Shown: in pieces, positions 22,426 through 49,419 of the stretch | How positions within the stretch are numbered: the stretch's first letter is position 1 | Layout: every line of letters begins with the position of its first letter | Assembly (NCBI RefSeq): GCF_002914585.1 | Contig: NZ_PDDM01000004.1 | Coordinates: 186,001-250,000 of the forward strand | Origin: Pseudanabaena sp. BC1403 | Lineage (GTDB): Bacteria; Cyanobacteriota; Cyanobacteriia; Pseudanabaenales; Pseudanabaenaceae | Length of the DNA: 64,000 nucleotides | Reading direction: 5' to 3' | Notes under the pieces: generated by a model | Told to the model about the DNA's origin: nothing | Databases searched by the model: none | The model's input: only the letters and a program-made list of their open reading frames with translations | Made by a program: the position numbers and the translations under genes

Positions 22426-22438
22426 GCTTTTATCCACA

Positions 22439-25918: not shown

Positions 25919-26050
25919 AGTGAAGACACTAATAGTAATAGTAACAATAAAAAAAATTCTTTGTTTTTTTCAGTTGAATGATGATGAAGAGGTTAATATA
26001 AGAGGTAACTTCTGACTTTTGCGTGTATTTTTTGGGATTACACAATATTT

Positions 26051-29000
26051 ATGTCTACTGATGTAAACGTCTTCACTACAAACGATCTGGGGGCAGTGAT
26101 AGTCCGTAACCCACTAGTTGTCAAGGCTGAAACTACAGTCATCGAAGCGATCTCCCAGATGAGCGATCGCAATGAGAATGTTATGCTCGCAAAGGTTCAA
26201 GCAAGCTGTGTGTTGGTGGTTGAAGAAGAAAAAGTCCTTGGTATTTTCACAGAACATGATGTGGTGCGTCTTATTGCCCAGTCGCGATCGCTAGAAACGT
26301 TGACTATGCAAGAGGTAATGACCTCGCCTGTGCTCACAATTCAGGAAACTGAATGTGCGGATTTATCCTCATTGATGAAGATGATGCAACAGCAGCACAT
26401 TCGCCATTTGCCGATCTTGAATGATGATAATCGGCTCTTGGGAATTGTCACCATCGAAAGCCTTTTGCAAGAGATGCATTCCTCATCTCAGCTTTTAAAA
26501 AAATCCTCCGAAGCAGAACTAAAACTGAGTGAACAAAGATTTAGGTCGGTGACAAAAGCTGCACCTGTGGGAATTTGTCGTACTGACAAGCTTGGTAACT
26601 GTATCTATATGAACGATCGATGGTGTCAGATTTCAGGATTAACGCCATCAGAGGCTGAGGGATTGGGTTGGATAAATGGCATTCATCCCTGCGATCGCGA
26701 ACTTCTTTCGAGAGAATGGAATGATTCCATGCAAGAAAATCGCCCCTTCAAACTTGAGTATCGGTTTCAAAATTTATCAGGGAGAATTACTTGGGCATAT
26801 GCAGAGGCTGTAGCTGAATATGATGAGTTGGGCGAAATTATTGGTTATGTTGGTACGATTACGGATATTAGCGATCGCAAAGCTACCGAACAAGCCCTGA
26901 AATTGCAGCGAGACTTGAATCAGCTAATTGCCGAAATCACCAGTCGATTCATTGATATTAGTCCAGAATATCTAGATGCGGAGATTAATCTCTCACTTCA
27001 ACTGATTGGCGAAGCGACCAACTCTGATACTAGCTATCTGATCAAATTTCTGGTGAAAGATCAAGATGACTCTCCGCTCCCAGAAGGAACTGTGAGCATG
27101 ACCCATGAATGGTGTAAGCCCAAATACCCTCGACAAATCGAACAAGTGCAGAATGTTCCTTTATCTGCATTCCCTTGGTCTAACACTAAACTCCTACAGC
27201 GAGAAGTTGTGAATATACCCAGAGTTATAGATGCACCTAGAGAGGCGATAATCGACCAAGCGAGTTGGCAAAGGTTTAACATCGTGTCCTCGTTATCGGT
27301 TCCCCTAATTCAAAAATCAGTTGTCACAGGAACGTTGGGATTTGCATCCTTCAGCGATGTCATCTATTGGGATGAGGAAATCATTAGGTTATTGCAAGTA
27401 ATGGCACAAACCATAGCCAATGCCCAACAACGCGCTCAAGATGAACAGCAGCTATATGAGAGCGAAGAACGGTTGCGTCTAGCCCTTAGAGCCGCAAATC
27501 AAGGGCTTTACGATCTTAATTTGCAAACTGGGGAAGTGATCGTCAGTCTCGAATATGCCACAATGCTAGGCCATAATCCTGCTACTTTTCAAGAGACTAA
27601 TGCTAAATGGATAGAACGTCTACATCCAGATGATCGTGAGCATGTTACTAAAGTGTATCAAGAATATGTGGCGGGGCTTTCTCCAGAATACAAAGTGGAA
27701 TTTCGGCAACTTACGCAAACGGGTGAATGGAAATGGATTCTTTCTCTTGGTAGAATTGTAGCTTGGGATGAGTCGGGTAATCCCTTACGGATGTTGGGAA
27801 CTCATACGGATATTAGCGATCGCAAAAAAGCCGAGGCAGAACGATTACTTGCCAAGCAGGTTCGCCAAGAATTAAAATTCCTAGAAAATATTCTTGATAT
27901 AGTCCTTGCAGGCTATTGGGATTGGGATCTGCAAACTAATGAGGAATATCTCAGTAAAGGACTAAAGCAAATGTTTGGCTATGAAGATGATGAGTTGCCA
28001 AATTCTCCTGAGACATGGCAACATCTGATCTTTGATGAAGATTTACCAATGGTTTTTGAGTGCTTTGACCAGCATGTCCAGAGCCACGGTGAAGTTCCAT
28101 TTTACAATGAAGTCAGGTATCGCCACAAAGATGGTTCTACAGTCTGGGTCAACTGTTCTGGCAAGGTGATCGAATGGGATCAAGAAGGTAAGCCACTGCG
28201 AATGATTGGTTGCCACATCGACATTACTAAACAAAAACAGGCTGAGAATAGCTTACGCAAAAGTGATATCCATTTAAAGACTGCTCAACGAATTGGTAGG
28301 CTAGGAAGTTGGGAATTTATCCTCGATCCTGAACAAGTCATTTGGTCAGATGAGTTGTTTCATATTTTTGGGCGTGATAGGACTATGGCTCCTCCCAATT
28401 TCGATGAACTCCAAGAATTATTACATCCTGACGATCGCGACCATCATCAGCAAACCGTACAGACAGCTATTGTCACTGGAAAACCCTTTGATATTGAATT
28501 CCGCTTCTTCCATCAAGATGGCAATATTAGATATATCCAAGCTAGGGGAGAACCAATTTTAGATGATTCTAATTGCGTCATTCAACTAATTGGCACTGCC
28601 CTAGATATTAGCGATCGCAAACAAGCCGAAGCAACCCTTATCCACACCACCACGCAGTTAGTTTCCTCTAACCGTGAACTAGAAGCCTTTGCTTACTCGG
28701 TTTCCCATGATTTGCGATCGCCTTTACGAGCAATTGACGGCTTTAGCCAAGCTCTAATCGAGGATTATGGCGACAAATTTGATAATGAGGGCAAGGATTA
28801 CTTTGATCGAATTCGTCGGAATATCAAACGTATGGGGATGTTGATTGATGACCTACTGCGCCTCTCCCGTGTGTCTCGCTCTGAGATGCGATACAGCAAG
28901 ATCAATCTCAGTATGCTAATTGCTGAACAGTTAAATGAACTGCAAACAGCAGAGCCAGAGAGACAAGTTAAGTTTGTGATAGCTCCAGATGTATTTGTCT

Positions 29001-29395
29001 CAGCTGATAGTACTCTAATGCAGATGGTGATCAGCAACTTGGTGCAAAATGCTTGGAAATTTACCAGTAATCATGCAACGGCGAGGATTGAATTTGGATT
29101 GATTCCATCTGAAAGCAACCAAAACACTCAATTTACCTATTTTGTTCGCGATGATGGAGCAGGATTTGATATGAACTATGCCGACATGTTGTTTGGGGTT
29201 TTTCAAAGACTTCACAACACCAATGAATTTGCAGGAACAGGTATCGGACTTGCCACTGTACAACGGGTAATTCATCGACATGGTGGACGTGTTTGGGCAG
29301 AGGGTGCGATCGAGCATGGTGCGACCATTTATTTCACCATACCTGATACCATGCCAAGTTCAGTGACTAATGTGCCAATCGGAAGAGGAGCTTAA
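26051..29395 (+). CDS. Histidine kinase: CBS pair, PAS, GAF, three PAS, phytochrome-type HisKA and HATPase
   Basis: 1114 aa, soluble, no receiver. Approximate order: CBS pair 10-150 (LGIFTEHDVVRLI, HIRHLPILNDDNRLLGIV), PAS 165-290, GAF 300-475, PAS 480-605, 610-740 and 745-865. The kinase core has His886 in YSVSHDLRSPLRAIDGF, the form seen in Cph1-like cyanobacterial kinases. The ATPase has NLVQNAWKFT, DDGAGF and GTGIGLATVQR. Its cognate receiver is probably the next gene, which begins four bases after the stop. The core belongs to a different subfamily from the neighbouring hybrid kinases. Confidence 0.92.
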   Translation: MSTDVNVFTTNDLGAVIVRNPLVVKAETTVIEAISQMSDRNENVMLAKVQASCVLVVEEEKVLGIFTEHDVVRLIAQSRSLETLTMQEVMTSPVLTIQETECADLSSLMKMMQQQHIRHLPILNDDNRLLGIVTIESLLQEMHSSSQLLKKSSEAELKLSEQRFRSVTKAAPVGICRTDKLGNCIYMNDRWCQISGLTPSEAEGLGWINGIHPCDRELLSREWNDSMQENRPFKLEYRFQNLSGRITWAYAEAVAEYDELGEIIGYVGTITDISDRKATEQALKLQRDLNQLIAEITSRFIDISPEYLDAEINLSLQLIGEATNSDTSYLIKFLVKDQDDSPLPEGTVSMTHEWCKPKYPRQIEQVQNVPLSAFPWSNTKLLQREVVNIPRVIDAPREAIIDQASWQRFNIVSSLSVPLIQKSVVTGTLGFASFSDVIYWDEEIIRLLQVMAQTIANAQQRAQDEQQLYESEERLRLALRAANQGLYDLNLQTGEVIVSLEYATMLGHNPATFQETNAKWIERLHPDDREHVTKVYQEYVAGLSPEYKVEFRQLTQTGEWKWILSLGRIVAWDESGNPLRMLGTHTDISDRKKAEAERLLAKQVRQELKFLENILDIVLAGYWDWDLQTNEEYLSKGLKQMFGYEDDELPNSPETWQHLIFDEDLPMVFECFDQHVQSHGEVPFYNEVRYRHKDGSTVWVNCSGKVIEWDQEGKPLRMIGCHIDITKQKQAENSLRKSDIHLKTAQRIGRLGSWEFILDPEQVIWSDELFHIFGRDRTMAPPNFDELQELLHPDDRDHHQQTVQTAIVTGKPFDIEFRFFHQDGNIRYIQARGEPILDDSNCVIQLIGTALDISDRKQAEATLIHTTTQLVSSNRELEAFAYSVSHDLRSPLRAIDGFSQALIEDYGDKFDNEGKDYFDRIRRNIKRMGMLIDDLLRLSRVSRSEMRYSKINLSMLIAEQLNELQTAEPERQVKFVIAPDVFVSADSTLMQMVISNLVQNAWKFTSNHATARIEFGLIPSESNQNTQFTYFVRDDGAGFDMNYADMLFGVFQRLHNTNEFAGTGIGLATVQRVIHRHGGRVWAEGAIEHGATIYFTIPDTMPSSVTNVPIGRGA

Positions 29396-29399
29396 AATC

Positions 29400-29819
29400 A
29401 TGGCTTTACGCCCAATTATACTGATTGAAGATAACCCTGACGATGAAAGATTAACAATTCGTGCCTTGCGGCGGGGCAATGTCGCCAATGAAATTTTCGT
29501 TGCCCACAATGGTGAGGAAGCATTGTCAATGGTGTTAAATGCTAATCCGTTACCAAGTGTAGTCTTATTAGATCTAAAGCTACCCAAGGTAGATGGATTA
29601 GAAGTATTACGACAGATTCGAGCTAATGCTCGCACACATTTACTCCCAGTGGTTGTGCTTACATCTTCCAGCGAAGATCGTGATATCATCGATAGTTACA
29701 ACTTGGGAGCGAATAGTTATGTACGAAAGCCAGTGGAAATCGAAAAATTCACGGAAGCAGTGCGTCAACTAGGGTTGTATTGGGCAGTCATTAATGAAAC
29801 TAGTCCAGGAGGTTTGTAA
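29400..29819 (+). CDS. Rcp1-like stand-alone response regulator
   Basis: 139 aa, a single receiver domain from the ATG at 29400; the open frame upstream overlaps the kinase gene and is unlikely. Acidic pocket IEDNPDDE, phospho-acceptor Asp58 in VVLLDLKLPKVDG, conserved Thr/Ser in VVLTSSSEDRD and Lys in SYVRKPVE. The EDNPDD/RALRRG and LGLYW features are those of Rcp1/RcpA regulators paired with phytochrome-type kinases. It is flanked by gaps of four and three bases, so the order kinase-Rcp-hybrid kinase looks operonic. Confidence 0.92.
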   Translation: MALRPIILIEDNPDDERLTIRALRRGNVANEIFVAHNGEEALSMVLNANPLPSVVLLDLKLPKVDGLEVLRQIRANARTHLLPVVVLTSSSEDRDIIDSYNLGANSYVRKPVEIEKFTEAVRQLGLYWAVINETSPGGL

Positions 29820-29822
29820 ACC

Positions 29823-32800
29823 ATGACTTACAGCCTAAAGGTCTTAAGTATTGAAGATTCAGAGGATGATGCGCTTTTAGTGATACGCGAACTGCGGCGT
29901 GGAGGATTTAATGTTGTTTGGGAACGAGTGGAGACAGCCGAAGATCTACGCACGGCACTAACTAGTCAAACTTGGGATGTGATCATTTCTGATTACCATT
30001 TACCGAAGTTCGATGCATCTAGAGCGCTGCAAATCGTTAAACAAGAATTTCCTGATCTTCCTTTTATTGTAGTCTCTGGATTAATTGGTGAGACTTCAGC
30101 TGTAGAACTGATGAAAGCAGGCGCTCAGGATTACCTAATGAAAGGGAACCTAGCTCGTTTAGCCGAAGCTGTGCGACGAGAAATTCGGGAAGCTCAGATT
30201 CGACTTGAGCGTCAACGTTCAAAACAGCAGCTAGAAAGCGCCCAAGAACGTCTGCAACTCGCCATTGAAGGTTCAGGCATTGGTCTATGGGACTGGAATA
30301 TTCAGACAGGGGCAGTAACGATCAATGAGCAATGGGCTAAAATTATCGGTTATTCTATTGAAGAGTTAGCACCAATCGGTTTTGAAACTTGGCAACAGCA
30401 TACCCATCCAGATGATTTTCAGAAGGTCAATTTTGCTTTGGAGCAATACCTTCACCACAAGACACAGAGCTATGAATGCGAACTACGAATGCTCCATAAA
30501 TCTGGTGCTTGGATCTGGTTATTGAGCAAAGGCAAAGTGGTCGAATGGGATGCCGCAAATAGACCATTACGGATGACAGCTACATATTTAGATATCTCTA
30601 CGCGCAAACAAGCTGAATTGCGAGTAGAGATGCAAAACCTGATCTTGGAGCGAATTGCCAAAGGAGAACCTTTGCCAGATATGCTGGATATGCTGGTACG
30701 TGCAACGGAAGATCAAATTGAAGGAGGGATCTGTTCTATTTTACTTTGCGATCACGATGGCATATTGCATCTTGGCGCAGCGCCTAATTTGCCCGATGAT
30801 TATAATCAAGCCATCGAAGGGCTAGTAATTAGCGAGGGTGTGGGTTCCTGTGGCACAGCCGCTTTTCGCAAAGAACCTGTGATTGTTACCGATATTACCA
30901 CCGATCCACTTTGGCGGGATTTTAAGGAATTAGCCTTGACTCATAATTTGCGATCATGCTGGTCATTTCCTGCGATCGCTAGTGATGGTTCGGTGCTAGC
31001 CACCTTTGCGGTTTATCACCCTGATATTCATATTCCACAGCCACGAGAACTGGAGGTGATTAGTCTTGCCGCAAATATTGTCAAAATTGCGATCGAGCGG
31101 GAACAAGCCACTAAAAAACTAGAGCAGTTAAATCGGGAATTGGAAGATCGGGTGGAACAACGCACCGATGCTTTGAGGCAGAGTGAAGCCCGCTTGCGAG
31201 AAGCTCAACAAATTGCTCATCTTGGTAGTTGGGAACTGGACGTAATCACCCAAAAAGTTACTTGGTCTGAGGAAATATTCACCATTCTTTCCCTCGATCC
31301 CCATAGATCTACATTAACCCATGAACAATTTGTCCAATTTTTGGCTCCTCATGAACAAGAGCGCTTAAAACTACTGAATAAAAGAGCAATTAGATATCGA
31401 GAATCCTTTACCCTTGATGCAGAGATTGTCTGTGCTGATGGTTCCATTGGTTATATTTTTATCAAAACTGAGCCGATCTGGGATGCGCTGGGAAAGGTAA
31501 CCCGATTGTTGGGAATTGTGATGGATATTAGCGATCGCTATGCCATGCAAGAAGCTCTACGACGCAGTGAAGAAAGAGCTAGAGCCACTCTCAAGGCTTT
31601 GCCCGATCTGGTGTTTCGAGTTGATCGCGAAGGAAAATATTTGGATTTTATGGTGTCACCTCAAGGTCGCTACCTTGTTGATCCGCAGCAACTAGTTGGA
31701 AAAAATATTCATGAGACTTTTCCCATACCGACTTCGACAATTTACGCAGAGCGCAAATATGCAGCTCTTCAGCAAGCACTTGTCACGCAGACTGTCCAAA
31801 TTTATGAACAGCAGATTGAGATTGGCGATCAATGCCGTTATGAGGAGATTCGGGTTGCTCCCAGTGGAAGTGATGAAGTGGTCTTTTTTATTCGAGATAT
31901 TAGCGATCGCAAGCGAGCAGAGGTACAACTGCACCAAACAAATCAAGAACTTGCCCGTGCCACGAGACTTAAGGATGAATTTCTGGCTAACATGAGTCAC
32001 GAACTTCGCACCCCTCTCAACGCAATTTTGGGAATGACTGAAGGCTTACAAGAACAAGTATTCGGTAAAATTAGCGATCGTCAACTAAAAGCCCTGCAAA
32101 CTATTGAGTCTAGTGGATCTCACCTATTGGAACTAATCAATGACATCCTTGATCTTTCTAAAATAGCCTCTGGACAAATCGAACTTGACTGTACCCTCAC
32201 TTCGATCAATCGTCTCTGTCAATCTAGTCTGACGTTTATTAGGCAGCAAGCCCTGCAAAAATGTATCCAAGTTCATACTAAAATCCAGATGGATTTGCCA
32301 GATTTGCTCGTGGATGAACGTCGCATCCGTCAGGTATTGATTAATCTTCTTAGCAATGCTGTCAAATTTACTCCAGCAGGAGGAACTATAACTTTGGAAG
32401 TTAGTCGCCTTCAGTTGATCACTTCTTTCCAAGAAGAAGCTAATGAAGAAGTAAAAGAATACTTGCAAATAGTGGTAATTGATACTGGCATTGGTATTGC
32501 CGAAGAAAACATTCAGAAATTATTTAAGCCTTTTGTCCAAATCGACAGTGCGTTGAATCGTCAATATGAAGGCACGGGTTTGGGTCTGTCTCTAGTTAAG
32601 CAAATGGTGGAACTTCATGGTGGCAAGGTAGGATTAACCAGCGAGCTTGGTGTAGGTAGTCGCTTCACCGTAGAGCTACCCTATGCTCCCAATGTTGAGT
32701 TCTCCTCTAAAGTACTCGACATTGATATAGCAACTACGAGTTCACAACTGGAATCTCCAGCCACAAGCAAGTTACAAGTTCCTTTGATTTTGATTGCCGA

Positions 32801-33140
32801 AGACAATGAAGCCAATATCATGACGCTTTCTAGTTATCTATTGGCAAAAGGCTATCGCATTGTATTAGCTAAAAATGGGGAGGAGGCGATCGCGATCGCA
32901 TTGTCGGCTAGACCTGATTTGATATTGATGGATGTGCAAATGCCATTAATGGATGGGTTAGAAGCAATTAGACGGATTCGGCAGATTACTAGTCTAGCCA
33001 ATGTCCCGATTATTGCTCTGACTGCTTTAGCAATGGCAACTGATCAAGATCGTTGTCTTGCCGCAGGTGCTAATGAGTATCTTCCGAAACCCATAAAATT
33101 AAAGGAACTTGTTGCAATGATTAAAAAAATATTAGTTTAA
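29823..33140 (+). CDS. Hybrid kinase with receivers at both ends: REC, PAS, GAF, two PAS, HisKA, HATPase, REC
   Basis: 1105 aa, soluble. N-terminal receiver 1-125 with Asp57 (VIISDYHLPKFD); PAS 145-270; GAF 285-430 with GVGSCGTAAFRKEPVIVTDI; coiled coil; PAS 455-580 and 585-700. HisKA has His726 in NMSHELRTPLNAIL, HATPase has LLSNAVKFT, DTGIGI and GTGLGLSL, and the C-terminal receiver has Asp1037. Two receivers plus one transmitter suggest a phosphorelay node. Three bases separate it from the Rcp1-like gene, which could exchange phosphate with it. Its C-terminal half is a close paralogue of those at 18883 and 22439. Confidence 0.9.
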   Translation: MTYSLKVLSIEDSEDDALLVIRELRRGGFNVVWERVETAEDLRTALTSQTWDVIISDYHLPKFDASRALQIVKQEFPDLPFIVVSGLIGETSAVELMKAGAQDYLMKGNLARLAEAVRREIREAQIRLERQRSKQQLESAQERLQLAIEGSGIGLWDWNIQTGAVTINEQWAKIIGYSIEELAPIGFETWQQHTHPDDFQKVNFALEQYLHHKTQSYECELRMLHKSGAWIWLLSKGKVVEWDAANRPLRMTATYLDISTRKQAELRVEMQNLILERIAKGEPLPDMLDMLVRATEDQIEGGICSILLCDHDGILHLGAAPNLPDDYNQAIEGLVISEGVGSCGTAAFRKEPVIVTDITTDPLWRDFKELALTHNLRSCWSFPAIASDGSVLATFAVYHPDIHIPQPRELEVISLAANIVKIAIEREQATKKLEQLNRELEDRVEQRTDALRQSEARLREAQQIAHLGSWELDVITQKVTWSEEIFTILSLDPHRSTLTHEQFVQFLAPHEQERLKLLNKRAIRYRESFTLDAEIVCADGSIGYIFIKTEPIWDALGKVTRLLGIVMDISDRYAMQEALRRSEERARATLKALPDLVFRVDREGKYLDFMVSPQGRYLVDPQQLVGKNIHETFPIPTSTIYAERKYAALQQALVTQTVQIYEQQIEIGDQCRYEEIRVAPSGSDEVVFFIRDISDRKRAEVQLHQTNQELARATRLKDEFLANMSHELRTPLNAILGMTEGLQEQVFGKISDRQLKALQTIESSGSHLLELINDILDLSKIASGQIELDCTLTSINRLCQSSLTFIRQQALQKCIQVHTKIQMDLPDLLVDERRIRQVLINLLSNAVKFTPAGGTITLEVSRLQLITSFQEEANEEVKEYLQIVVIDTGIGIAEENIQKLFKPFVQIDSALNRQYEGTGLGLSLVKQMVELHGGKVGLTSELGVGSRFTVELPYAPNVEFSSKVLDIDIATTSSQLESPATSKLQVPLILIAEDNEANIMTLSSYLLAKGYRIVLAKNGEEAIAIALSARPDLILMDVQMPLMDGLEAIRRIRQITSLANVPIIALTALAMATDQDRCLAAGANEYLPKPIKLKELVAMIKKILV

Positions 33141-33170
33141 GATTAAATAATGCTGATAGAGGGGGGTATA

Positions 33171-33248
33171 GCAAACCAAGGTTTGCTTATGACATAAAAC
33201 CAGAAGATGAGTGGCGGCGCGAAGCGCCGCCACTCATCTTCTGGTTTT
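33171..33248. repeat. Small hairpin followed by perfect 25-bp hairpin, loop GAA
   Basis: GCAAAC-CAAG-GTTTGC (33171-33186) is followed by arms 33196-33220 and 33224-33248, a perfect 25-bp stem with tip GGCGGCGC-GAA-GCGCCGCC. It lies 30-110 bp after the kinase stop and probably ends the kinase operon. The 617-bp gap to 33758 otherwise holds the composite repeat below and AT-rich sequence with no gene seen. Confidence 0.8.
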
Positions 33249-33409
33249 GGTTTGTACTAGCTAACTCTTTTTTTGCTATATATAGCAATCCAAAATATTT
33301 GATTTTATCCATGACTTACATTGCTATACCAATTCATATAGTTGCAGTCACTTGTCTTAGGACAAATCAATTCTTGGGTTTTATGCCTTAGTAAACTTGG
33401 CGATAGCTA

Positions 33410-33502
33410 TAAAAGTGTGACGATACTTTTGTGAATTAAAAACTAAGCTCAGTAAGGGTTTTAAAAGGACAAAATGGCATAGCCATTTTGTCTTTTGTGA
33501 TC
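33410..33502 (+). repeat. Composite double-hairpin repeat, copy A
   Basis: The order is ACTTTTGTGAATT, AAACTAAGCTCAGTAAGGGTTT, then hairpin ACAAAATGGC-ATA-GCCATTTTGT. It matches copies at 53210-53308 (same strand) and 55021-55125 (opposite strand). The leftmost arm (ATACCAATTCAC) is lost here and replaced by unrelated sequence. Confidence 0.75.
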
Positions 33503-33757
33503 ATAAAGATTTATTGTGGTTCGTTTGGCTGAAAAACTGCGGTAATTCTCAAAGTTGTAGTCATACTTTCAGGAGTTGCTATAATTCATACATAGTTATG
33601 CTTTTTATATACTGCGCTTTGCAATGATATAAAGGTTAATGTTTGGGTTAATAAAGTTAATTTGGAACTTTTTTAACCAGAATAATGTCTTAAGTCTTTT
33701 GACAAACTATCGATAATATCGCATATATCTAAGGCTCTAAGAGGTCTGAATAGCTGT

Positions 33758-36676
33758 ATGAGAGAGTTAATTCAAAGTAATTCAAACAGCCAAAATCAGG
33801 ACTTGATTAACGCCGAAGCATCTCGACTTGATTGGGGAAATCTGATAGCGACAATTGCTCTGGGGATTCAGCAATCTTTCGCTCTGTCAACAATTTTGCA
33901 AACAACTGCGGACGAAGTGCAGCAACTACTGCACTGCGATCGCGTATTGTTTTATCAGTTTGCCCCAGATCTGAGCGATCAAGATGAATTTCTTTCGGGG
34001 TTTCAGGAACCCGCTAATCTGGTGATTCCAGTATTAAATGCATCTCAGCGTTGGGGAGTCCTCATTGCCCATGTCCATAATGACAAAACACCCCGTCGTT
34101 GGCAGCCAGAAGAAATTCATGGATTGCGGCAAATCGCCGTTCATGTTGGCATTGCCATCCATCAGGCATCTTTGCTAGCACAATTGAAAGAAGCAAAAGA
34201 AGCGGTATCGGTTCAAATGGGGGGATTTGCTGAGCTAAACCAGACTAATCATCAGTTTTTACAAAGCGAAGAAAAATATCGACATCTGATTAATAATCTT
34301 CATGCTGGTTTCGTGGTTCATGCCCCAGACACAAGCGTCATTTTCTGCAACTCTAATGCCTGTGAGCTATTGGGACTAACTCCAGATCAGATGTTAGGAA
34401 AAACAGCGACCGACCCAACTTGGCATTTTGTTTATGAAGATGGAACTGCTATGCCATTTAAAGAATATCCAGTCAATCAAGTTCTCAGGACTGGTCTACC
34501 TCTGAGGAACTATGTAGTAGGAATCTATCAAGGCGAACAAACCCAAGTTTGGGTTTTGGTTAACGCATTTCCAGAGTTTGACGCTAACAAGCAAATTCAA
34601 CAAATTGTGATCACATTTATTGATATAAGCGATCGCAAAAAAGTCGAATTAGAAAATCGGGAAGCTCAGAATTTTCTCAATTCAATTATTGAAAATATCC
34701 CTAATATGCTCTTTGTTAAGGATGCTGAGAACCTAAGATTTGTGCGTTTCAACAAGGTTGGTGAAGAACTGCTTGGCTATTCCCGAGAATCATTAATCGG
34801 CAAAAGTGATTATGATTTTTTCCCGCCAGAGGAAGTAGATTTTTTCATCGCTAAAGATCGTGAGGTGTTGGCAAGTTGTAAGGTTCTCGATATTCCCGAA
34901 GAAGTTATTCAAACCAGAAATAAGGGTGCAAGAATTTTACATACTAAAAAAATTCCTATTTTTGATGAGTTTGGTCATCCTCAATACTTATTAGGCATTT
35001 CTGAAGATATTACTGAACGCAAACAAGCTGAACTAGCTCTGCAAGAAAGCGAATCTAGATTTCAGAAGATTGCCTTATCATCACCAGGAGCTATCTATAT
35101 TCTCGTGCGCAGTCTAGATGGCACAAACTACTTTGAATATGTAAGTGCAGCCTTTGAAGATATTTGCGAAGTTAGTGTTAAACAGTTACTAGAAAACTTC
35201 AACAACTATAAGACATTGATTCATCCTGAGGATCTGGCAGGTTATCAAGAAGCTGTTAAATATAGTATGCAAAATCTGTCACCTTTTAAACATAGTTGGC
35301 GGATTATTACCCCTATCCAAAAGCTAAAATGGGTACAGGTTAGCTCCCGCAACGAATGTCGTGATAATGGAGATATCGCTTGGTATGGAGTGATGTTAGA
35401 TATAACTGATCTTAAACAAACTGAAATAGCTTTAGCGAAAGCCAAGGAAGTCGCAGAAGCAGCGACTAAAGAGAAAAGTCAGTTTCTTGCTAACATGAGT
35501 CATGAAATTCGCACACCGATGAATGGTGTCTTAGGAATGGCTGAAATACTTGCAAATACTAAGCTTACTGAAGATCAGAAAGATATTCTGCAAACGATTC
35601 GAGATAGTGGTGATGCTCTTTTAGTAATAATCAACGATATTCTCGATTTCTCAAAAATAGAATCAGGAATGTTTCAATTAGAAGAGCATTCTTTTGTTCT
35701 AAAAGATTTAATTTTATCTGTTTGTAGTCTATTGAGTAAGCAAGCTCTAGCCAAAGATATTGTTGTTCAGTATGAAATTTCTCCTGATATTCCAACTAAT
35801 GTTTTAGGAGATAGCAATCGCCTACGTCAAATCCTCTTAAATTTAATTGGTAATTCAATTAAATTTACTCAAAATGGTAGTATTAATATTTCTATTACCA
35901 AGAATAGAACGGATGAGAATGGACTATTAGAACTAACTTTTTCTATTAAAGATACGGGAATTGGTATCGACTGCGATCGCATTGATCGGCTATTTCAGCC
36001 CTTTACCCAAGCTGACTCTTCCATTTCACGAAAATATGGTGGTACTGGCTTAGGTTTAGCGATTAGCGAAAGTTTAGTGAGATTAATGGGCGGGGACATT
36101 TGGGTAGAAAGCTTGGGCAATATTGGGGGAATACCTCCTGAGAGTTGGACTATAGATCCAGACTTAACTCAAGGTTCAGTCTTTTATTTTACGATTAACT
36201 TAAAAGTAGTTGCCGAAGCGAAAGCTATATCCCAAAAAACTTTAAGTGAACCCCAACTAGATGTGAAGACGGATCAATCCAAGTATCAAATCCTCCTCGC
36301 TGAAGATAATCTTGTCAATCAAAAAGTAGCGGCAATGATGCTCAAAAAGCTGGGATATATTGCTGACATTGCTAATAATGGCTTAGAAGTATTACGAATG
36401 GTAGAAATGCGAGTTTATGATCTCATTCTCATGGATATGCAAATGCCAGAAATGGATGGAGTTACGGCAACAAAGATTATTCGCCAGTCTAACCAACCGC
36501 AACCTCGGATTATTGCCGTAACAGCTAATGCTTTAGAAGAAGATCGTCAAAAATGCTTTGATGCAGGAATGAATGATTTTGTAACTAAACCGCTTCTAAT
36601 TCAAGAGCTGAATCGCATCATTTCAGAATATTCCCAAACAAGGCAGCTTAGCCAAAGGCAGATTGCCCATACCTAA
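33758..36676 (+). CDS. Hybrid histidine kinase: short GAF, three PAS, HisKA, HATPase, receiver
   Basis: 972 aa, soluble. The N-terminal GAF (about 25-150) has the phytochrome-family edges TTADEVQQLLHCDRVLFYQF and EIHGLRQIAVHVGIAIHQASLL, but lacks the central lobe with the bilin-binding Cys, so it should not bind a chromophore covalently. PAS domains at about 170-295, 300-425 and 430-560. HisKA has His582 in NMSHEIRTPMNGVLGMAE (BarA/ArcB-like), HATPase has NLIGNSIKFT and GTGLGLAISESLV, and the receiver has Asp893 in LILMDMQMPEMDG. The core is of a different type from the upstream kinases. Separated from them by 617 bp, it is probably transcribed independently. Confidence 0.92.
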   Translation: MRELIQSNSNSQNQDLINAEASRLDWGNLIATIALGIQQSFALSTILQTTADEVQQLLHCDRVLFYQFAPDLSDQDEFLSGFQEPANLVIPVLNASQRWGVLIAHVHNDKTPRRWQPEEIHGLRQIAVHVGIAIHQASLLAQLKEAKEAVSVQMGGFAELNQTNHQFLQSEEKYRHLINNLHAGFVVHAPDTSVIFCNSNACELLGLTPDQMLGKTATDPTWHFVYEDGTAMPFKEYPVNQVLRTGLPLRNYVVGIYQGEQTQVWVLVNAFPEFDANKQIQQIVITFIDISDRKKVELENREAQNFLNSIIENIPNMLFVKDAENLRFVRFNKVGEELLGYSRESLIGKSDYDFFPPEEVDFFIAKDREVLASCKVLDIPEEVIQTRNKGARILHTKKIPIFDEFGHPQYLLGISEDITERKQAELALQESESRFQKIALSSPGAIYILVRSLDGTNYFEYVSAAFEDICEVSVKQLLENFNNYKTLIHPEDLAGYQEAVKYSMQNLSPFKHSWRIITPIQKLKWVQVSSRNECRDNGDIAWYGVMLDITDLKQTEIALAKAKEVAEAATKEKSQFLANMSHEIRTPMNGVLGMAEILANTKLTEDQKDILQTIRDSGDALLVIINDILDFSKIESGMFQLEEHSFVLKDLILSVCSLLSKQALAKDIVVQYEISPDIPTNVLGDSNRLRQILLNLIGNSIKFTQNGSINISITKNRTDENGLLELTFSIKDTGIGIDCDRIDRLFQPFTQADSSISRKYGGTGLGLAISESLVRLMGGDIWVESLGNIGGIPPESWTIDPDLTQGSVFYFTINLKVVAEAKAISQKTLSEPQLDVKTDQSKYQILLAEDNLVNQKVAAMMLKKLGYIADIANNGLEVLRMVEMRVYDLILMDMQMPEMDGVTATKIIRQSNQPQPRIIAVTANALEEDRQKCFDAGMNDFVTKPLLIQELNRIISEYSQTRQLSQRQIAHT

Positions 36677-42354: not shown

Positions 42355-45108
42355 TTACGGCACAAAAATAGCTTTTAACATTCCTTCCTGCCGATCTGGA
42401 TGTAACTGAAATCCTAAATTGCGACAGATACTTTGCATTTTGTCATTGTTATTCAAGATATAACCAATGATCGCACTGAGTTTTTCTTCCTTACCAATCT
42501 CAATTAGTCTTCTTAACAACTCTGTGCCTAAGCCTTGATGCTGATAGCGATCGCTAACGATTAGTGCAAATTCGGCTTCGTTTGTACCATGTAACTTACT
42601 CAACCTTGCCACCGCCAAAATCTCATGCTCGGAAGTTTGCAGATTTTTAGAATCAGCGACTAAGAGCATTTCGCGATCGTAATCAATGAAGCAAATTCGA
42701 GTTAAGCGTTCATGAGCAATCCGCTGCTTGAGCTTAACCATGTGTGCATAACGCAAATAGACACTCTCTTCTGAAAGACTTTGGTGGAAATGCACCATAA
42801 GTGGCTCATCTTCAGGACGAATAGGGCGAATCGTGAGGCGATCGCCTTTTAGGGATTCCCACGGCTGCACATACTTAGAAGGATAGGGACGAATGGCAGG
42901 CGCAGGGCGTTTGGTAATATCTGCTGTGTGCATTACTACTCGCGCATCTAGAGCAATCATGCCATCAGGCGAAACCATGAGAGGATTGATATCAATTTCG
43001 CGAATCTGGGGCTGTTCAACGATTAATTGGCTGAAGTTAACCAATAATTGCTCAAGCTTTGCCAAATTAATCGCCTTTCTACCCCTAACTCCTTGCAAAG
43101 CTTGATAGATGCGAGTCTGTTCCATCATGCGCCTCGCAAGAGTTGTATTTAACGGTGGCAAGGCTAATGCGCGATCTTGAAAGATTTCTACAAGCTGACC
43201 ACCCATGCCAAAGAGCATCACTGCGCCAAACTGAGGATCAAGACTGCTACCTAAGATCAATTCATAGCCATCTGTCTTGACCATCGGTTGCACAGTTACA
43301 CCCAAAAAGGCTTGAGGATTTATAGCCCGAACTTTGGATGCGATCGCCATAAAAGCGCGAGTAACGGCTGCTGCATCTTCGAGATTAAGACGCACCCCAC
43401 CCACATCTGTCTTGTGAGTGATAATCTCGGAATGGAGTTTAAGAACAACAGGATAACCTAAACGATCAGCGATTTCTACAGCTTCCAGATCGCTCGTAGC
43501 GATTTCGGTTTGTACAGTGGGAATTCCATAGGCTGCGAGTAGTTTCTTGGATTCATACTCAGTTAACAGACTGCGATCGCTACTGATTGCTGGCGCTAAA
43601 ATCTGCTCGGCAAGAAGGCGATCGGGTGCGTACTGATCGGAATCCACAGGTAAAGAGGGAGTCTCATAAATACTACGCAGATTATAGGTATACCGCCACA
43701 TATAGTTAAACAGTCTGACGGCAGTATCTGGATAGGGATAGGTGGGAATATTGGCTTGATTGAGGATTTGCGTACCTGTGGCAATTTCGGCTCCGCCCAT
43801 CCAACTTGTTAAAACTGGTTTGCCTAATTGACTATAAGCCTTGAGCTTTTTCGCAGTCTGTGTAGGGTTTGTCATTGCTTGCGGAGTCAAGATTACGAGT
43901 AATCCATCGCTGTTGGGATCATTTGCCACAACCTCTAGGGTTTTAGCATAGCGATCGCTACTTGCATCGCCCAAAATATCGATGGGATTGTGATGGCTCC
44001 ATTGGGGAGGCAAAAATTGATCTAGCTGCTGCAATGTTTCTGGAGCTAGTTCAGACAATTCACCACCGCCACTGATCAGAGCATCCGTTGCGATCGCGCC
44101 AGGCCCCCCAGCATTGGTGACAATTGACAGACGATTTCCCTTAGGTCTTGGTTGTTTGGCGAGAATTTCTGCCATATCAAACAGATCAGAGATTGTATGT
44201 ACACGTAATACCCCACAACGACGAAATGCTGCATTTAGTACTTCATCGCTACCTGTCAAAGCACCAGTGTGTGAGGCGGCAGCTTTCGCCGCCGCTTCAG
44301 TATGCCCAACTTTCAATACAATAATCGGTTTATCCATCGCAACTTCACGGGCTGCCGATAGAAAGGCGTGAGCATCGCCAATTGATTCCATATATAAAAC
44401 TATACTGTGGGTATGAGGATCGTCACCGAGGTATTCAATCAAATCACCCCATCCTACATCCAGCATTGAGCCAATGGAAACGAAGGCACTAAATCCCACA
44501 TTTTCGCCTAGGCTCCAGTCCAAAATCGAAGTACAGAGCGCTCCACTTTGACTAATGAAAGCAACGTTACCCGCACGAGCGATCGTGCCCGCAAAGGTGG
44601 CATTTAGTCCTGCCAATGGATTCATGACTCCAAGACAATTCGGCCCAATAATTCGCATCCCCCCACTTCTTGCTTCAGTGAGAACTTGCTGTTCTAAAGC
44701 TGCTCCCGCCTCGCCAATTTCTTTGAACCCCGCTGAGACAATTATTGAGCCTTTTACCCCGACCGCCACACATTCACGAATCACCTGAGGAACTGTCGCC
44801 GCAGGTGTTGCAATTACAACTAGATCGACTACTTCGGGAACACTAGTGATATCTGGGTAGGACTTAATTCCCAATACGCTATGACGCTGCGGATTGACTG
44901 GAAAAACAGTGCCACCAAAGGGACTGCGTATTAAATTCCAAAGCAATGTTCTTCCTACACTTCCTTCTCGTTCACTTGCTCCAATCACAGCAACAGAGCG
45001 AGGACGAAAAATACAGTCAAGGGGATGCCGATGTCTTTTCCAAATATCATGTGCTGGATCGCCAGCACACATTTGATTTGTTAAATTATTTGTTGAAACT
45101 TTCTCCAT
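42355..45108 (-). CDS. Acyl/acetyl-CoA synthetase (ADP-forming) fused to GNAT acetyltransferase, Pat-like
   Basis: 917 aa. CoA-binding Rossmann domain about 30-160 ([22 protein letters not shown]); succinyl-CoA-ligase-like domains to about 480, with the phospho-His region [17 protein letters not shown]; an ATP-grasp domain about 510-720 ([25 protein letters not shown]-type); and a C-terminal GNAT domain about 755-917 ([20 protein letters not shown]). This is the architecture of bacterial protein acetyltransferases such as Pat/YfiQ, in which the synthetase part may be only regulatory. It probably acetylates lysines of metabolic enzymes with acetyl-CoA. Monocistronic. Confidence 0.9.
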
Positions 45109-45658: not shown

Positions 45659-46462
45659 TCAAATATCGCTAGTTAAAATAAAGCGCCAATCACTTTCATC
45701 CATGCCATGACTGACCAAACTAGCGATCGCATTAGGAAACACACCCTGATTTGCAAGGGTAATCGCTAAATCATCACCCCTCGGCACACAGAACATATGG
45801 GTATATCCAGCGACGGGATCCGAAATCTCAGTAGGCAGACGATCGCCCCACTGTACATGTAGTAATGGCAATATGTCTCCATTACTTTTTAGTTTTAAAT
45901 CTTTAATACCTTTTAGAGAGAGATAGGAGATATTACCGCGATATTTAATGAGTATCGCTTCTAGCGATCGCATTACTTCCGCATCGACACTATAGATTCC
46001 CAATATAGACGAGCAGCGAAACCGCACTAGATTAAACTTCTCATAAACTCGCACAAGACGATTAGGTTTGCCATCACCTGCATTCATCGATATTGTATAA
46101 CCGCGATCGCATTCTCCTATACAGGAAGTCAAAGCATGATGCAAAATCCTCATCGAAAGATGTTGCCTCTGATAGTCAGGATGGACTTTTAAATCGCAGA
46201 GATACCAAGCTAAACGCACTGGTTGATCCTGACGGTAAGGCACTTGTCTTAATATTCCTGCGCCAACAGCCGCTACGCGATCGCCATCCAAAGCGGCAAA
46301 ATAATGGACATCGCCAAGGCGATCAAAAAAGGCAAAGTAATTATTTCCATGATCGAGTTGAAAGAAATCATTGGCCAAAGGGTAGAAAGCAGTTTGCTCG
46401 ATCGCTTCAATTCCCGATTGAAATAGAGAACGTTCTGCAAACTCAATGCGATGAAACTTCAT
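45659..46462 (-). CDS. GNAT-family acetyltransferase
   Basis: 267 aa. GNAT core at about 45-155: FAALDGDRVAAVGAGILRQV, then WYLCDLKVHPDYQRQHLSMRILHHAL (motif A, with QRQHLS in place of the usual Q/RxxGxG/A) and YEKFNLVRFR. The remaining 110 residues are not recognised. It overlaps the upstream DUF3419 gene by ATGA and is the last gene of the four-gene desaturase/HDO/BtaA-like operon. N-acylation of an amine made by the preceding transferase is an attractive but unproven role. Confidence 0.75.
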   Translation of the reverse strand: MKFHRIEFAERSLFQSGIEAIEQTAFYPLANDFFQLDHGNNYFAFFDRLGDVHYFAALDGDRVAAVGAGILRQVPYRQDQPVRLAWYLCDLKVHPDYQRQHLSMRILHHALTSCIGECDRGYTISMNAGDGKPNRLVRVYEKFNLVRFRCSSILGIYSVDAEVMRSLEAILIKYRGNISYLSLKGIKDLKLKSNGDILPLLHVQWGDRLPTEISDPVAGYTHMFCVPRGDDLAITLANQGVFPNAIASLVSHGMDESDWRFILTSDI

Positions 46463-47556
46463 GACTGAAACCCTACGACAACTTCACGATAGAAAAAAGA
46501 GCGATCGCTTGCAAGCAATTCCTGACTAAGTGAGCGATCAATCGTAATATGCTCTGCCATAATTGCTTCTAAATTATGATCGCCATTGAGTCTCCGTCCG
46601 ATGATCGCTCCGCCTGATTTTAGGCAAAGAACTATCTCATTCAGCATTTGATGGAGACTGCTCAGAGGCATCCAGTCTGAGATATTAGAAAACTGAATCA
46701 GGTCGAATTTTTCTGATGTGGCGAGTTGCTGAAGGCAATCAACAAAAGCGCCCTGATGTAGTTGCAATCGCTCTGTTCCTAATCTGTGAATATCATTTTG
46801 AGCAGATGCTTGGAGGTAAAGAGGAACTCCCTCGCCTGTGAGATTTGACGTATAGCGATCGCCACAGACTTGAGTTAAGAAATAATTCTCATTAGGGATA
46901 AAGCGCTGTAAGGCTTGGGCAAATACATCGGCAAAATGCTCGCCAAAGCTGCGATCCATCGAGTAGTTAACGGCAGCTTCGCCAAATGTCTGTATGAGGC
47001 GATCGCGCTCAAATACCTGCTCAAAAATATCGCGCCATCGTGGATGCTGAATAGCAACTAACGGTTCTTGCAAAGGTTCGATTCCAATCTGGGCAAACTT
47101 TTCTGCAAGTTGGTGAAATAGTTGCTCAAAACGTCCGACTCGGTTAACGCCAAACTCAATCTGTTCTGGTCTTACGTCCCAAAATGCCTTTGTGCTGAGT
47201 GGCAAATTTGAACTGAAGCTGGCATAGATGCTGAGCCAATCGCGATCGCTAGCAGATTTGTCAGCACCAATTAATTGCAATTGGTCATCTAAAGATAAAT
47301 GCAGTAAGGCTTGGCGACGTAGTTCGACGAGATGTAGTTGGGCGGGATTAAGATCTACTGCCTCGATTTTTGCGATCGCAGGGTTTGACAGCAAACTTAA
47401 GGCGGTGCAACCACCTGAAGCCACCAAAAGCACCCTTAATGGATTTTGTTGGCGCTTGGCTAACTCTTGGATTACGCGCAATTCAATCCGAGGATCTTCT
47501 CGCACTTGCGAGAAGGCTATTTCTGAGGTGATTTCCGAACTGGAGCTACAAGTCAC
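46459..47556 (-). CDS. DUF3419, BtaA-like S-adenosylmethionine 3-amino-3-carboxypropyl transferase
   Basis: 365 aa from the GTG at 47554-47556, which has GGAG eight bases upstream; a TTG ten codons earlier is a weaker alternative. Motifs: SEIAFSQVREDPRIELRVIQ, SAM loop VLLVASGGCTALSLL, acidic VDLNPAQLHLVELR, and late FDLIQFSNISDWM and GGAIIGRRLNGDH. BtaA moves the aminocarboxypropyl group of SAM to diacylglycerol in betaine-lipid synthesis, but no BtaB N-methyltransferase is here, so the product need not be DGTS. It overlaps the diiron oxidase gene by eleven bases and the GNAT gene by four. Confidence 0.8.
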   Translation of the reverse strand: MTCSSSSEITSEIAFSQVREDPRIELRVIQELAKRQQNPLRVLLVASGGCTALSLLSNPAIAKIEAVDLNPAQLHLVELRRQALLHLSLDDQLQLIGADKSASDRDWLSIYASFSSNLPLSTKAFWDVRPEQIEFGVNRVGRFEQLFHQLAEKFAQIGIEPLQEPLVAIQHPRWRDIFEQVFERDRLIQTFGEAAVNYSMDRSFGEHFADVFAQALQRFIPNENYFLTQVCGDRYTSNLTGEGVPLYLQASAQNDIHRLGTERLQLHQGAFVDCLQQLATSEKFDLIQFSNISDWMPLSSLHQMLNEIVLCLKSGGAIIGRRLNGDHNLEAIMAEHITIDRSLSQELLASDRSFFYREVVVGFQS

Positions 47557-48280
47557 GATATAAACTCCAGAAATAGTGAGCACCAAGCATTAAACCTTGC
47601 AATACTTGCCGACGAGTACGCAGATCTTCCCAACCTGCTTCTGCTAATAACAGCAAGTCTCTCGCATGTACAGTATCCAGTTTTTCATGGAATGCATAGT
47701 GTGATTGACTACCCGTCGCTGTCCAGCCTCGTTGATGTAAGGTTCTGGCGATCGCGGCACTGATGCCAATATAGAGATATTCAATCATGCCAAGCATCGC
47801 GGCTCCCGATTCTCCTGACTGCATTAGGCAATAGGTCAAAATCGATTGATTAAAAGCTAATACTGGCATCGTACAAGGTGAATTTAATTCGCATTCAGTT
47901 GCACCCAAAGCACGAAGATACTGCTGAAAAGTGTATTTGTGCGATCGCCAGCGATCTTCATGACCATGCTCTTCGGTAATATTTGCTAGTAATGGCAAGC
48001 GTGTCTCTAGAGTCTCCGTTCGGGCTAACACCGCAGCTAATGGCTGAGAAAAAGACTCAACAGCAAAACGAAATGGAAGTTGGCTGCGCCGAAAAGAATC
48101 GCGATCAGTTGTGGGATCTTCCATCCAGAGCATATAGGGATGGCTATTAAAGTCATAAACCTCTGCGATGCACAATACGGCTGATTGCAGAGATGGCAAC
48201 TTGCCTAAATCTTCGAGAGCCAATTCAGGATATTGCTGGATTCTCGGATTAGCGATCGGGTTTGCGATTAAAGTTTGCAT
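47546..48280 (-). CDS. Heme-oxygenase-like diiron oxidase/oxygenase (HDO/TenA-PqqC fold)
   Basis: 244 aa from the ATG at 48278-48280, with AGGA seven bases upstream; a TTG at 48296-48298 would overlap the desaturase stop. Candidate ligands for two irons are complete: Glu in NITEEHGHEDRW and His in RSHKYTF, Glu in GMIEYLYIGI, then HEKLDTVH (H-x3-D-x2-H). This is the pattern of CADD/UndA/BesC-type oxidases, which cleave or oxidise fatty acids and amino acids. Between a desaturase and a BtaA-like gene, its substrate may be an acyl chain or an amino-acid conjugate; that is inference. Confidence 0.8.
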   Translation of the reverse strand: MQTLIANPIANPRIQQYPELALEDLGKLPSLQSAVLCIAEVYDFNSHPYMLWMEDPTTDRDSFRRSQLPFRFAVESFSQPLAAVLARTETLETRLPLLANITEEHGHEDRWRSHKYTFQQYLRALGATECELNSPCTMPVLAFNQSILTYCLMQSGESGAAMLGMIEYLYIGISAAIARTLHQRGWTATGSQSHYAFHEKLDTVHARDLLLLAEAGWEDLRTRRQVLQGLMLGAHYFWSLYRDL

Positions 48281-48294
48281 ATTCATTTCCTGCG

Positions 48295-49287
48295 TCAATT
48301 AATCACCACAGTACCGACGGGCTGACGCTTCAAGCTGGCGGCGATAAAGTCTTGTACAAAAGAGAAATAAGAAGGAATGTATGGTGCTCCCTGTTGAATG
48401 AGATCTGACTTTAGCTCTTGATGAAGGCGTGGTAAATGATACCAAGGTACGGCGGGGTAAAGATGATGCTCTAAATGATAGTTTTCATTACACATAAAAA
48501 ATCTCACCAAAGGAATCGTCAAAATCGTGCGGGTTCCACGAACTAAATCTGCCTCATGTTCGAGCAATGTGTGCTGACTCATCCCGCGAATATTGACCAT
48601 TGTATTAATCCAAAGCATCGGAATCAACCAACCATGAATTAAGAATGCTTTAGGAATAGGCGATCGCAGCACCCCAATCACCAATAAGCCCAGCAAAGCT
48701 ACTTCGATCGCAATCCATACCCGTTCTGATTTATTTCCCTGCCAAAATCCAAGGATCGGAATCGCAATAATGTAAACAGGATAACCAATAATCAATCTAC
48801 CCCAATGCATCAAAAATGTTAGCCAGTTCCATTTGGTGTAGTTTTTGTAATGGTCGGGATCACCTTCTATACCTAAGTGTTTGTGATGCTTGAGATGTAA
48901 CACTTTGTAAGATGAGAAGTTTTGCCCAACGGGTAATGCGCAAAGAATACTCAGCCATCGATTCCAATGCAAATTACGACTTAGTACTCCATGTACGCCT
49001 TCGTGGGTGAACAGGCTAATACCATGTAAAGAAGCTGCTGCTAATAAATACAGAGGTAAACAGAGAATGTATACCCAAGGTATAGCGATCGCCTGTACCA
49101 AGACATACAATGCCAACGCTGCTGCCAAGTACAAAGCGATGAAGATTGGCAAGCGTTGAGGATGCTGATCAAGGCTATGCAATTGCTTGAGCAGTTCGGG
49201 ATCTAGCTTTGGCTTTTCTATCTCTTCACGAGTCTTATCCTGCTCAGGGCTAAGATTTTCCTTGTCTGAGAATTGTTGTGTTTTCAT
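48295..49287 (-). CDS. Membrane fatty acid desaturase/hydroxylase family protein
   Basis: 330 aa from the ATG at 49285-49287 (MKTQQFSDKENLSPE); a GTG six codons earlier is possible and neither has a strong ribosome-binding site. Histidine boxes: HEGVHGVL, HLKHHKHLG and NYHLEHHLYP. Four to six hydrophobic helices. The boxes fit diiron acyl-lipid desaturases and related hydroxylases or ketolases; regiospecificity cannot be read. It is the first gene of the overlapping operon that includes the HDO, BtaA-like and GNAT genes. Confidence 0.85.
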   Translation of the reverse strand: MKTQQFSDKENLSPEQDKTREEIEKPKLDPELLKQLHSLDQHPQRLPIFIALYLAAALALYVLVQAIAIPWVYILCLPLYLLAAASLHGISLFTHEGVHGVLSRNLHWNRWLSILCALPVGQNFSSYKVLHLKHHKHLGIEGDPDHYKNYTKWNWLTFLMHWGRLIIGYPVYIIAIPILGFWQGNKSERVWIAIEVALLGLLVIGVLRSPIPKAFLIHGWLIPMLWINTMVNIRGMSQHTLLEHEADLVRGTRTILTIPLVRFFMCNENYHLEHHLYPAVPWYHLPRLHQELKSDLIQQGAPYIPSYFSFVQDFIAASLKRQPVGTVVIN

Positions 49288-49419
49288 AGACCGAAGGATT
49301 TCCACAAAAAAGAATTAAAATGAGTTGCATTTATGAAATCTTATCTTTCATTCCTATTTTAATTGTGTTCGATCTAAGTTGACATAGTGGTGACTCTCAT
49401 CACAGGCGATCGATGATAT

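Follow-up and report, generated by a model that had tools for sequence, protein, structure and literature searches.

What might four adjoining genes of the cyanobacterium Pseudanabaena sp. BC1403 make together? The genes occupy positions 45659-49305, on the minus strand, of a 64,000-nt stretch of its genome (contig NZ_PDDM01000004.1 of assembly GCF_002914585.1, positions 186,001-250,000; hereafter the window). In transcription order, they encode a desaturase-family protein, a heme-oxygenase-like diiron oxidase (HDO), a DUF3419 protein and a GNAT:

48295..49305, minus strand: FA_desaturase-family membrane protein (Pfam FA_desaturase, 132.6 bits; cut-off 29.7)
47546..48298, minus strand: HDO, a Haem_oxygenas_2 protein (Pfam, 58.3 bits; cut-off 28.9), start probably ATG 48280
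46459..47586, minus strand: DUF3419 protein, putative 3-amino-3-carboxypropyl transferase (Pfam DUF3419, 128.7 bits; cut-off 28.2), start possibly GTG 47556
45659..46462, minus strand: GNAT-type N-acyltransferase (Pfam Acetyltransf_1, 22.6 bits; cut-off 20.7, a marginal match), start ATG 46462

An earlier note on this DNA had named four minus-strand genes of these families, with junctions of 14, -11 and -4 bp. The open reading frames (ORFs) and Pfam matches agree with it, and the junctions are exact with the HDO, DUF3419 and GNAT starts listed above; ATG 49287 is an alternative start candidate for the desaturase.

We favour the reading, at a probability of about one half, that the genes form a self-contained, scattered biosynthetic cassette whose product would be an oxidised, N-acylated amino compound derived from S-adenosylmethionine (SAM), rather than an ordinary betaine lipid. 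The chemistry that follows, with its acceptor, acyl donor and product, is our inference. The DUF3419 enzyme would cleave SAM, releasing methylthioadenosine, and transfer the 3-amino-3-carboxypropyl group to some nucleophile that differs from, or goes beyond, ordinary diacylglycerol. Two diiron enzymes, the soluble HDO and the membrane-bound desaturase/hydroxylase, would oxidise the resulting product (by desaturation, hydroxylation, or oxidation at C-C or N), not necessarily in gene order; put differently, the two diiron enzymes would oxidise the aminocarboxypropyl unit or its carrier. The GNAT would N-acylate the amine, yielding in the end either an oxidised N-acyl amino acid or an aminolipid-like compound.

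We favour this reading because the gene order is conserved despite different flanks, a related DUF3419-HDO-GNAT triad occurs in Mycobacterium riyadhense, the GNAT is found only in cassettes in the one order searched, the ratio of nonsynonymous to synonymous substitution rates (dN/dS) is 0.07-0.20, the HDO ligands are invariant, the DUF3419 protein lies outside the BtaA-type group and no BtaB was found. As the earlier note had held, a plain betaine lipid is unlikely, since the operon is conserved, the HDO ligand set is full and no BtaB was found to accompany the DUF3419 protein. The product may still be a lipid.

Conservation and spread of the cassette

An HDO profile search at E ≤ 1e-15 covered 426 genomes, 38 of the window's order and 388 of a second order, and matched 19 of them: 8 of the 38, all in the same genus as the window, and 11 of the 388. 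The earlier note had proposed looking for the gene order among cyanobacteria, and the order desaturase-HDO-DUF3419-GNAT proved to be conserved, complete in 13 of the 19 HDO-positive genomes (seven in the genus and six outside it) and in five families. Two further cassettes are interrupted by contig ends, with the first three genes visible in G696 and the last three in G494, and the cassette of G476 (locus L089) is decayed: part of the desaturase runs into the HDO frame, and the DUF3419 gene has lost an internal piece. The remaining three genomes (G062, G403 and G416) have a lone HDO without the cassette, and in each a very large gene of kinase type adjoins. Six of the 19 genomes are also those of loci L043-L048 and were counted once.

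Intergenic spacing is tight in most cassettes, not in all; in L090, for example, the GNAT is preceded by 432 bp. Cassette proteins from outside the genus are about 55-73% identical to those of the window. Close relatives have common flanks; across unrelated loci the genes next to the cassette differ, except that large kinase genes, whose domains are common ones, recur and that the window and L052 share one gene, several kb away. Within the genus the cassette occupies several places: a GAPDH/psb34-like site in three genomes, a second site in L097, L098 and L100, and different ones in L096 and L101. Because complete cassettes recur in five cyanobacterial families with differing flanks, the grouping is more than chance. 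All four genes are under purifying selection against four Pseudanabaena loci, the dN/dS range given above coming from the 16 of 24 comparisons in which dS was unsaturated (it was saturated in the other 8).

The cassette comes and goes as a dispensable unit, since it is absent from most genomes, decayed in G476, reduced to a GNAT relic in G417 and without its desaturase and HDO in G694. The GNAT profile gave seven full-length matches in 376 genomes of one order, every one of them in a cassette, including the decayed one of G476; G417, a congener of G476, keeps a GNAT relic of 34 residues. The GAPDH of the window's own genome has 97-98% identity with its counterparts in Pseudanabaena sp. lw0831 (L048) and UWO311 (L043), and 98.5% with that of G694 (L159). 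At the same chromosomal place, G694 has neither desaturase nor HDO nor the beginning of the DUF3419 gene; the rest of the DUF3419 gene and the whole GNAT are retained.

Phylum-wide, the window's HDO found relatives at E ≤ 0.001 in 13 of 386 genomes, five of them close (55-100% identity) and eight distant (26-31%); no further cassette gene was seen at the two distant loci that were read (L063 and L064). The window's DUF3419 protein matched in 23 of 386 genomes, four of the matches being cassettes. HDO and DUF3419 profiles found no relatives in viral contigs.

In another phylum, a plasmid of M. riyadhense carries neighbouring genes for a DUF3419 protein (25% identical over 334 residues), an HDO (35% over 223) and a GNAT (27% over 115, E 2e-10), with an MMPL-type transporter gene next to them. 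This triad is without a desaturase and, unlike the cassette, starts with the DUF3419 gene, whose product has no N-terminal ED motif, a motif kept in 26 of 28 rows of our DUF3419 tree. Because the order differs and the motif is missing, the M. riyadhense DUF3419 protein may be divergent or worn. Similar HDOs (about 35% identity) occur on six Streptomyces plasmids, and no DUF3419 gene lay nearby in the two whose HDO surroundings were read. On the Streptomyces plasmids L066 and L067 (11253-12651), the HDO directly follows a gene annotated as an EF-hand protein (with EF-hand matches in L066), and transposase genes are near.

It is hardly credible that four unrelated genes lie together by accident. 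Lone HDOs do exist and the GNAT Pfam score is marginal, but the idea is contradicted by the conserved order, which is the same in 13 genomes of five families, as well as by the restriction of the GNAT to cassettes in the order searched and by the triad in another phylum.

The HDO and the DUF3419 protein

The complete HDO ligand set that the earlier note had read from the sequence is borne out. The three histidines and three carboxylates of the HDO superfamily are present, and the six positions (E110, H120, E173, H204, D208 and H211), as well as E109, are invariant in 8 of 8 aligned HDOs, including one from Mycobacterium and one from Streptomyces. They align to columns 81, 88, 142, 174, 178 and 181 of CADD, which we take to be its metal ligands. 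Both the Pfam score of 58.3 bits and a profile match to CADD (E 2e-14) assign the protein to the heme-oxygenase-like fold of the superfamily. The nearest solved fold to the HDO model is CADD (Z 13.6, root-mean-square deviation 4.0, 184 aligned), followed by HrmI (Z 12.8), a TenA homologue (12.6), PqqC (11.9), BesC (11.4), RohS (11.4) and UndA (10.5); helical bundles can reach such Z values through arrangement alone, and TenA and PqqC come close behind CADD. With Foldseek, CADD was the sole match at E ≤ 0.001. The model is metal-free, and its mean predicted local distance difference test score (pLDDT) is 67, falling under 50 at residues 84-122, which hold E110 and H120.

CADD is a self-sacrificing para-aminobenzoate (pABA) synthase that consumes its Tyr27 and Lys152, according to the available part of the source (PMC11965152). 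In the profile consensus aligned with CADD these columns are leucine and isoleucine, and an invariant tyrosine (Y55) lies one column earlier. A pABA synthase of the CADD type is ruled out for the cassette HDO because the two consumed residues are not kept. The fold and the six metal-ligand positions are otherwise like those of CADD, HrmI, BesC and UndA, whereas the partner genes of those enzymes are unlike the cassette's. The available part of a 2026 review (PMC13108848) gives mostly fatty or amino acids as the substrates of characterised HDOs and counts about a dozen validated members of the superfamily, and the cassette would give a function to one more branch.

The lone HDOs (about 55% identical) of L052, L093 and L094 each come straight after a gene whose product has about 1,800 residues; the large gene of L052, when scanned, showed protein kinase, AAA, GAF and histidine-kinase ATPase domains. 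The position of lone HDOs beside kinase-type genes suggests a separate, regulated use of the HDO.

DUF3419 proteins are known mainly as betaine-lipid machinery, and the Pfam label is still that of a protein of unknown function. The DUF3419 protein of the cassette, encoded by the single such gene of its genome, scores 128.7 bits with the family profile, compared with 382.2 bits for a Sinorhizobium-plasmid protein (cut-off 28.2). We take the latter to be of the BtaA type from a btaAB-like arrangement beside a methyltransferase gene, its record being without annotation there. In a tree of 28 rows, this BtaA-type protein grouped with 16 other rows (14 distinct) at a support of 100/99, and the cassette proteins, the Mycobacterium protein and one deep-branching protein (L053) fell outside the group. 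The tree has long branches and holds one BtaA-type row, eight cassettes and two duplicate rows, and 14 of its rows are a subset of the phylum-wide DUF3419 matches; one row (ot_L022), a wrong 54-residue fragment, broke up the cassette group. By tree position, the cassette protein does not belong with BtaA. A profile search of solved structures gave one methyltransferase at E 3e-4 and other, weaker matches.

The earlier note had also claimed that BtaB is missing, and none was found in the genome with one BtaB-type query: the best match, of 26.8 bits over about 120 of 219 residues, is generic methyltransferase similarity. The query was chosen from its place beside the BtaA-type gene and is a generic class-I methyltransferase in Pfam. 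The note had named ordinary diacylglyceryl-trimethylhomoserine (DGTS) together with a BtaB gene elsewhere as a refutation; on the side of the gene, this search with one query gave no BtaB. The cassette is like the BtaA/BtaB pathway to DGTS in its DUF3419 superfamily protein and presumed SAM aminocarboxypropyl donor, and unlike it in the BtaB search, in the tree position and in having three extra enzymes. BtaA is one of several unrelated enzymes that transfer the aminocarboxypropyl group of SAM, as the available part of one paper puts it (PMC10491745). By analogy, it would be a natural inference that the cassette DUF3419 protein transfers this group to an acceptor other than that of BtaA.

Membership of the DUF3419 superfamily and a desaturase of a membrane-bound family could also suit a modified betaine-type lipid, in which the DUF3419 protein, acting like BtaA, would make diacylglyceryl-homoserine and its three partner enzymes would oxidise and N-acylate the head group, to yield a phosphorus-free membrane aminolipid. 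The MMPL transporter gene beside the Mycobacterium triad is consistent with such a product, as is a desaturase 35% identical to the cassette's that adjoins a GH3 gene weakly matching the lyso-ornithine lipid synthetase OlsH (51.6 bits, cut-off 620). We nevertheless regard a modified betaine lipid as rather unlikely: no BtaB was found, the DUF3419 protein is outside the BtaA-type group, the desaturase stands apart from the DesA-like rows, and none of 15 upstream loci has a tandem Pho box of the scanned pattern, though three related loci have octamer pairs 9 nt apart.

DUF3419 genes occur in other settings. On a Roseinatronobacter plasmid (L068:523-8507), one lies in a run with UbiA prenyltransferase, PEP/pyruvate-binding and AMP-binding genes, and two cyanobacterial ones (L058:5156-10310 and L054:3994-8958) are near AMP-ligase-like genes, with a Rieske-like gene also present in L058, as judged by eye from the translations.

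The desaturase, the GNAT and the kind of product

The cassette desaturase is 66-96% identical in nine other cassettes, and the cassette desaturases form their own clade in every tree. In the largest tree, this clade is split at 100/100 from 15 cyanobacterial DesA-like rows (one of which was scanned, at 84.3 bits to DesA, under the cut-off of 500; the class of the remaining rows is our presumption) and sits with CrtR and RtxC/GntB rows (95/88). By this separation, the cassette desaturase does not group with the DesA-like acyl-lipid desaturases. The lipid or amino-acid pathway proposed in the earlier note has the conserved operon, the HDO ligands and the unsuccessful search for BtaB on its side; a lipid product and the transfer of a long acyl group by the GNAT are conjectural, as is an action of the desaturase on acyl chains, given its distance from the DesA-like rows.

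Support for RtxC as the sister of the cassette clade went from 97/92 through 89/79 to 64/28 in the largest tree, in which neither CrtR (p 0.455 in the approximately unbiased test, p-AU) nor the MocD group (p-AU 0.157) was rejected as an alternative. The earliest tree, without 15 minus-strand rows, placed the cassette with CrtR-type rows (84/86). The three later trees omitted 4, 11 and 10 rows by choice, mostly long branches; the first of these three also dropped cy_L110, a misread row of eight residues. The tree rows are a subset of the matches for which loci were read. The best NCBIfam model was GntB, an arginine hydroxylase, at 72.6 bits, under its cut-off of 380, so this model does not assign the protein to RtxC/GntB. 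The match is weak, because a genuine CrtR reaches 60.9 bits; the desaturase of a putative rhizobitoxine operon in P. phymatum scores 304.8, also under the cut-off. A profile search of solved structures with the desaturase gave no match up to E 0.1.

Genes named gntB, after the guanitoxin arginine hydroxylase, appear in Priestia and Peribacillus plasmid records, and the GntB model may reach beyond guanitoxin, since the Peribacillus one groups with RtxC-type rows. In G062 (L154:5294-11390), the run that holds the desaturase beside the OlsH-like GH3 gene also has ORFs without a Pfam family, two of them GNAT-like by eye, and is possibly another aminolipid or N-acyl operon. Because this relative of the cassette desaturase adjoins an OlsH-like gene, an aminolipid role stays conceivable.

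The RtxC side of the tree raises a further candidate, an enol-ether (vinylglycine-type) amino acid, for which the DUF3419 protein would form an O-aminocarboxypropyl ether, the desaturase would add a Cbeta-Cgamma double bond as RtxC does on dihydrorhizobitoxine, and the GNAT would mask the amine. The cassette desaturase joined RTX rows at 97/92 in one tree, and five RTX-type desaturase genes adjoin a gene for a pyridoxal-phosphate (PLP)-dependent transferase (annotated as O-acetylhomoserine aminocarboxypropyltransferase in two), which sets a precedent for pairing an aminocarboxypropyl-type transferase with a desaturase. The rhizobitoxine operon (rtxACD) has this pairing, as the cassette does, with a PLP-dependent transferase of aminocarboxypropyl type; unlike the cassette, its transferase is not DUF3419, and no HDO or GNAT adjoins in the P. 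phymatum stretch, where the desaturase is 29% identical to the cassette's over 241 residues. The sister support, however, falls to 64/28 with more rows, CrtR is an equally good sister, the GntB score of 72.6 bits is little above the 60.9 of a genuine CrtR, and other RTX-type genes have different neighbours, such as proline dehydrogenase in two. An enol-ether product is therefore doubtful in our view. We hold equally tentatively that the cassette could be the first route from the SAM aminocarboxypropyl group to an amino acid that carries an enol ether or is oxidised in another way; a non-lipid DUF3419 enzyme would make a homoserine ether, the CrtR/RtxC-side desaturase and the HDO would oxidise it and a dedicated GNAT would acylate it. 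On that view, the DUF3419-HDO-GNAT triad would represent a new class of SAM-derived N-acyl metabolites common to cyanobacteria and actinobacteria.

For the GNAT, an AlphaFold2 prediction from six rows at 78-93% identity had a pLDDT of 37.8, and the solved-structure profile search returned no convincing acyltransferase, with one ribosomal-protein acetyltransferase at E 0.99. A SAM-derived aminocarboxypropyl group combined with N-acylation is the logic of LuxI, and on a split version of that route the GNAT would acylate the amine, the DUF3419 protein would remove methylthioadenosine and the oxidases would trim the acyl chain, giving an N-acyl-homoserine or homoserine-lactone-like signal. In the acyl-oxazolone (tyz) clusters of mycobacteria, the available part of the report states, TyzA, which N-acylates amino acids, has acyl-homoserine-lactone-synthase-like proteins as its neighbours in fold and works with TyzC, a partner that desaturates the N-acylated product (PMC10404671), which lends such a signal some precedent. 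The cassette has no conserved neighbour that codes for a receptor or regulator, and with the low pLDDT of the GNAT model we consider a signal of this kind very improbable.

The tyz clusters are like the cassette in combining an N-acyltransferase with an oxidase that acts on the acylated amino acid, and unlike it in their flavin-dependent oxidase and ThiF-like cyclase; DUF3419 is not mentioned in the available part of that report (PMC10404671). Together with the RTX-type operons, they are analogies for the mechanism that we propose, of similar logic with other enzymes.

Several points weigh against an oxidised, N-acylated product of SAM. The activity of the DUF3419 protein is extrapolated from BtaA, a distant relative; in M. 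riyadhense, the DUF3419 protein is without the ED motif and the triad without a desaturase and in another gene order. The HDO may have a separate use, since 3 of the 19 HDO-positive genomes carry it alone, and the cassette is dispensable, being missing from most genomes and decayed in G476, G417 and G694.

Each enzyme family is known, and the combination and its conservation appear to be undescribed: our searches of an open-licence library listed no title or abstract that links DUF3419 or BtaA to an HDO, and the words heme and desaturase are absent from the main text of a paper on formylaminooxyvinylglycine (FVG) clusters (PMC8064604). If DUF3419 has a branch bound to such cassettes, lacking BtaB and linked with a diiron HDO and a GNAT of its own, the aminocarboxypropyl chemistry of SAM would extend to other kinds of biosynthesis. 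As the cassette has four genes and no further partner is conserved, the pathway could be transferred entire to a laboratory host and its product found by comparison of extracts.

Upstream region and neighbouring genes

The upstream scans covered 15 loci; one of these, L095, is truncated ahead of the desaturase, and its stretch therefore precedes the HDO. Two features were found in the window:

49389..49404, minus strand: CRP-type palindrome TGTGATGAGAGTCACC upstream of the operon (TGTGAN6TCACA scan)
49356..49385, minus strand: sigma-70-like promoter match with 9 of the 12 consensus letters, immediately downstream of the palindrome

A CRP-type site with at most one mismatch occurs in 5 of the 15 loci, against a shuffle mean of 0.195, and the same five are found when two mismatches are allowed (shuffles then average 2.2 and reach 7). 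The five loci belong to a single genus; three share a chromosomal place and two lie at others. With the excess over shuffles small at two mismatches, we treat the candidate site as a lead only. Sigma-70-like matches are no commoner than chance in the stretch (8, compared with a shuffle mean of 12.9).

No tandem Pho box (8-nt units, 3 apart) was found in the 15 loci; single Pho-like octamers occur, and two of them lie 9 nt apart in each of the related loci L044, L045 and L097. NtcA-type sites with at most one mismatch are present in 10 of the 15 loci, without excess over the shuffle mean of 11.4, and L092 has one exact match.

None of the four cassette proteins matched in a scan with a defence-system library. 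Positions 42355-45108 of the window encode an ADP-forming acyl-CoA synthetase fused with a C-terminal GNAT domain; the three genomes that have the GAPDH/psb34-like site carry this gene downstream of the cassette. Further away, at 18883-36676, five large plus-strand ORFs stand in a row; four of them were scanned and proved to be PAS hybrid histidine kinases that carry receiver domains and, in two cases, GAF domains.

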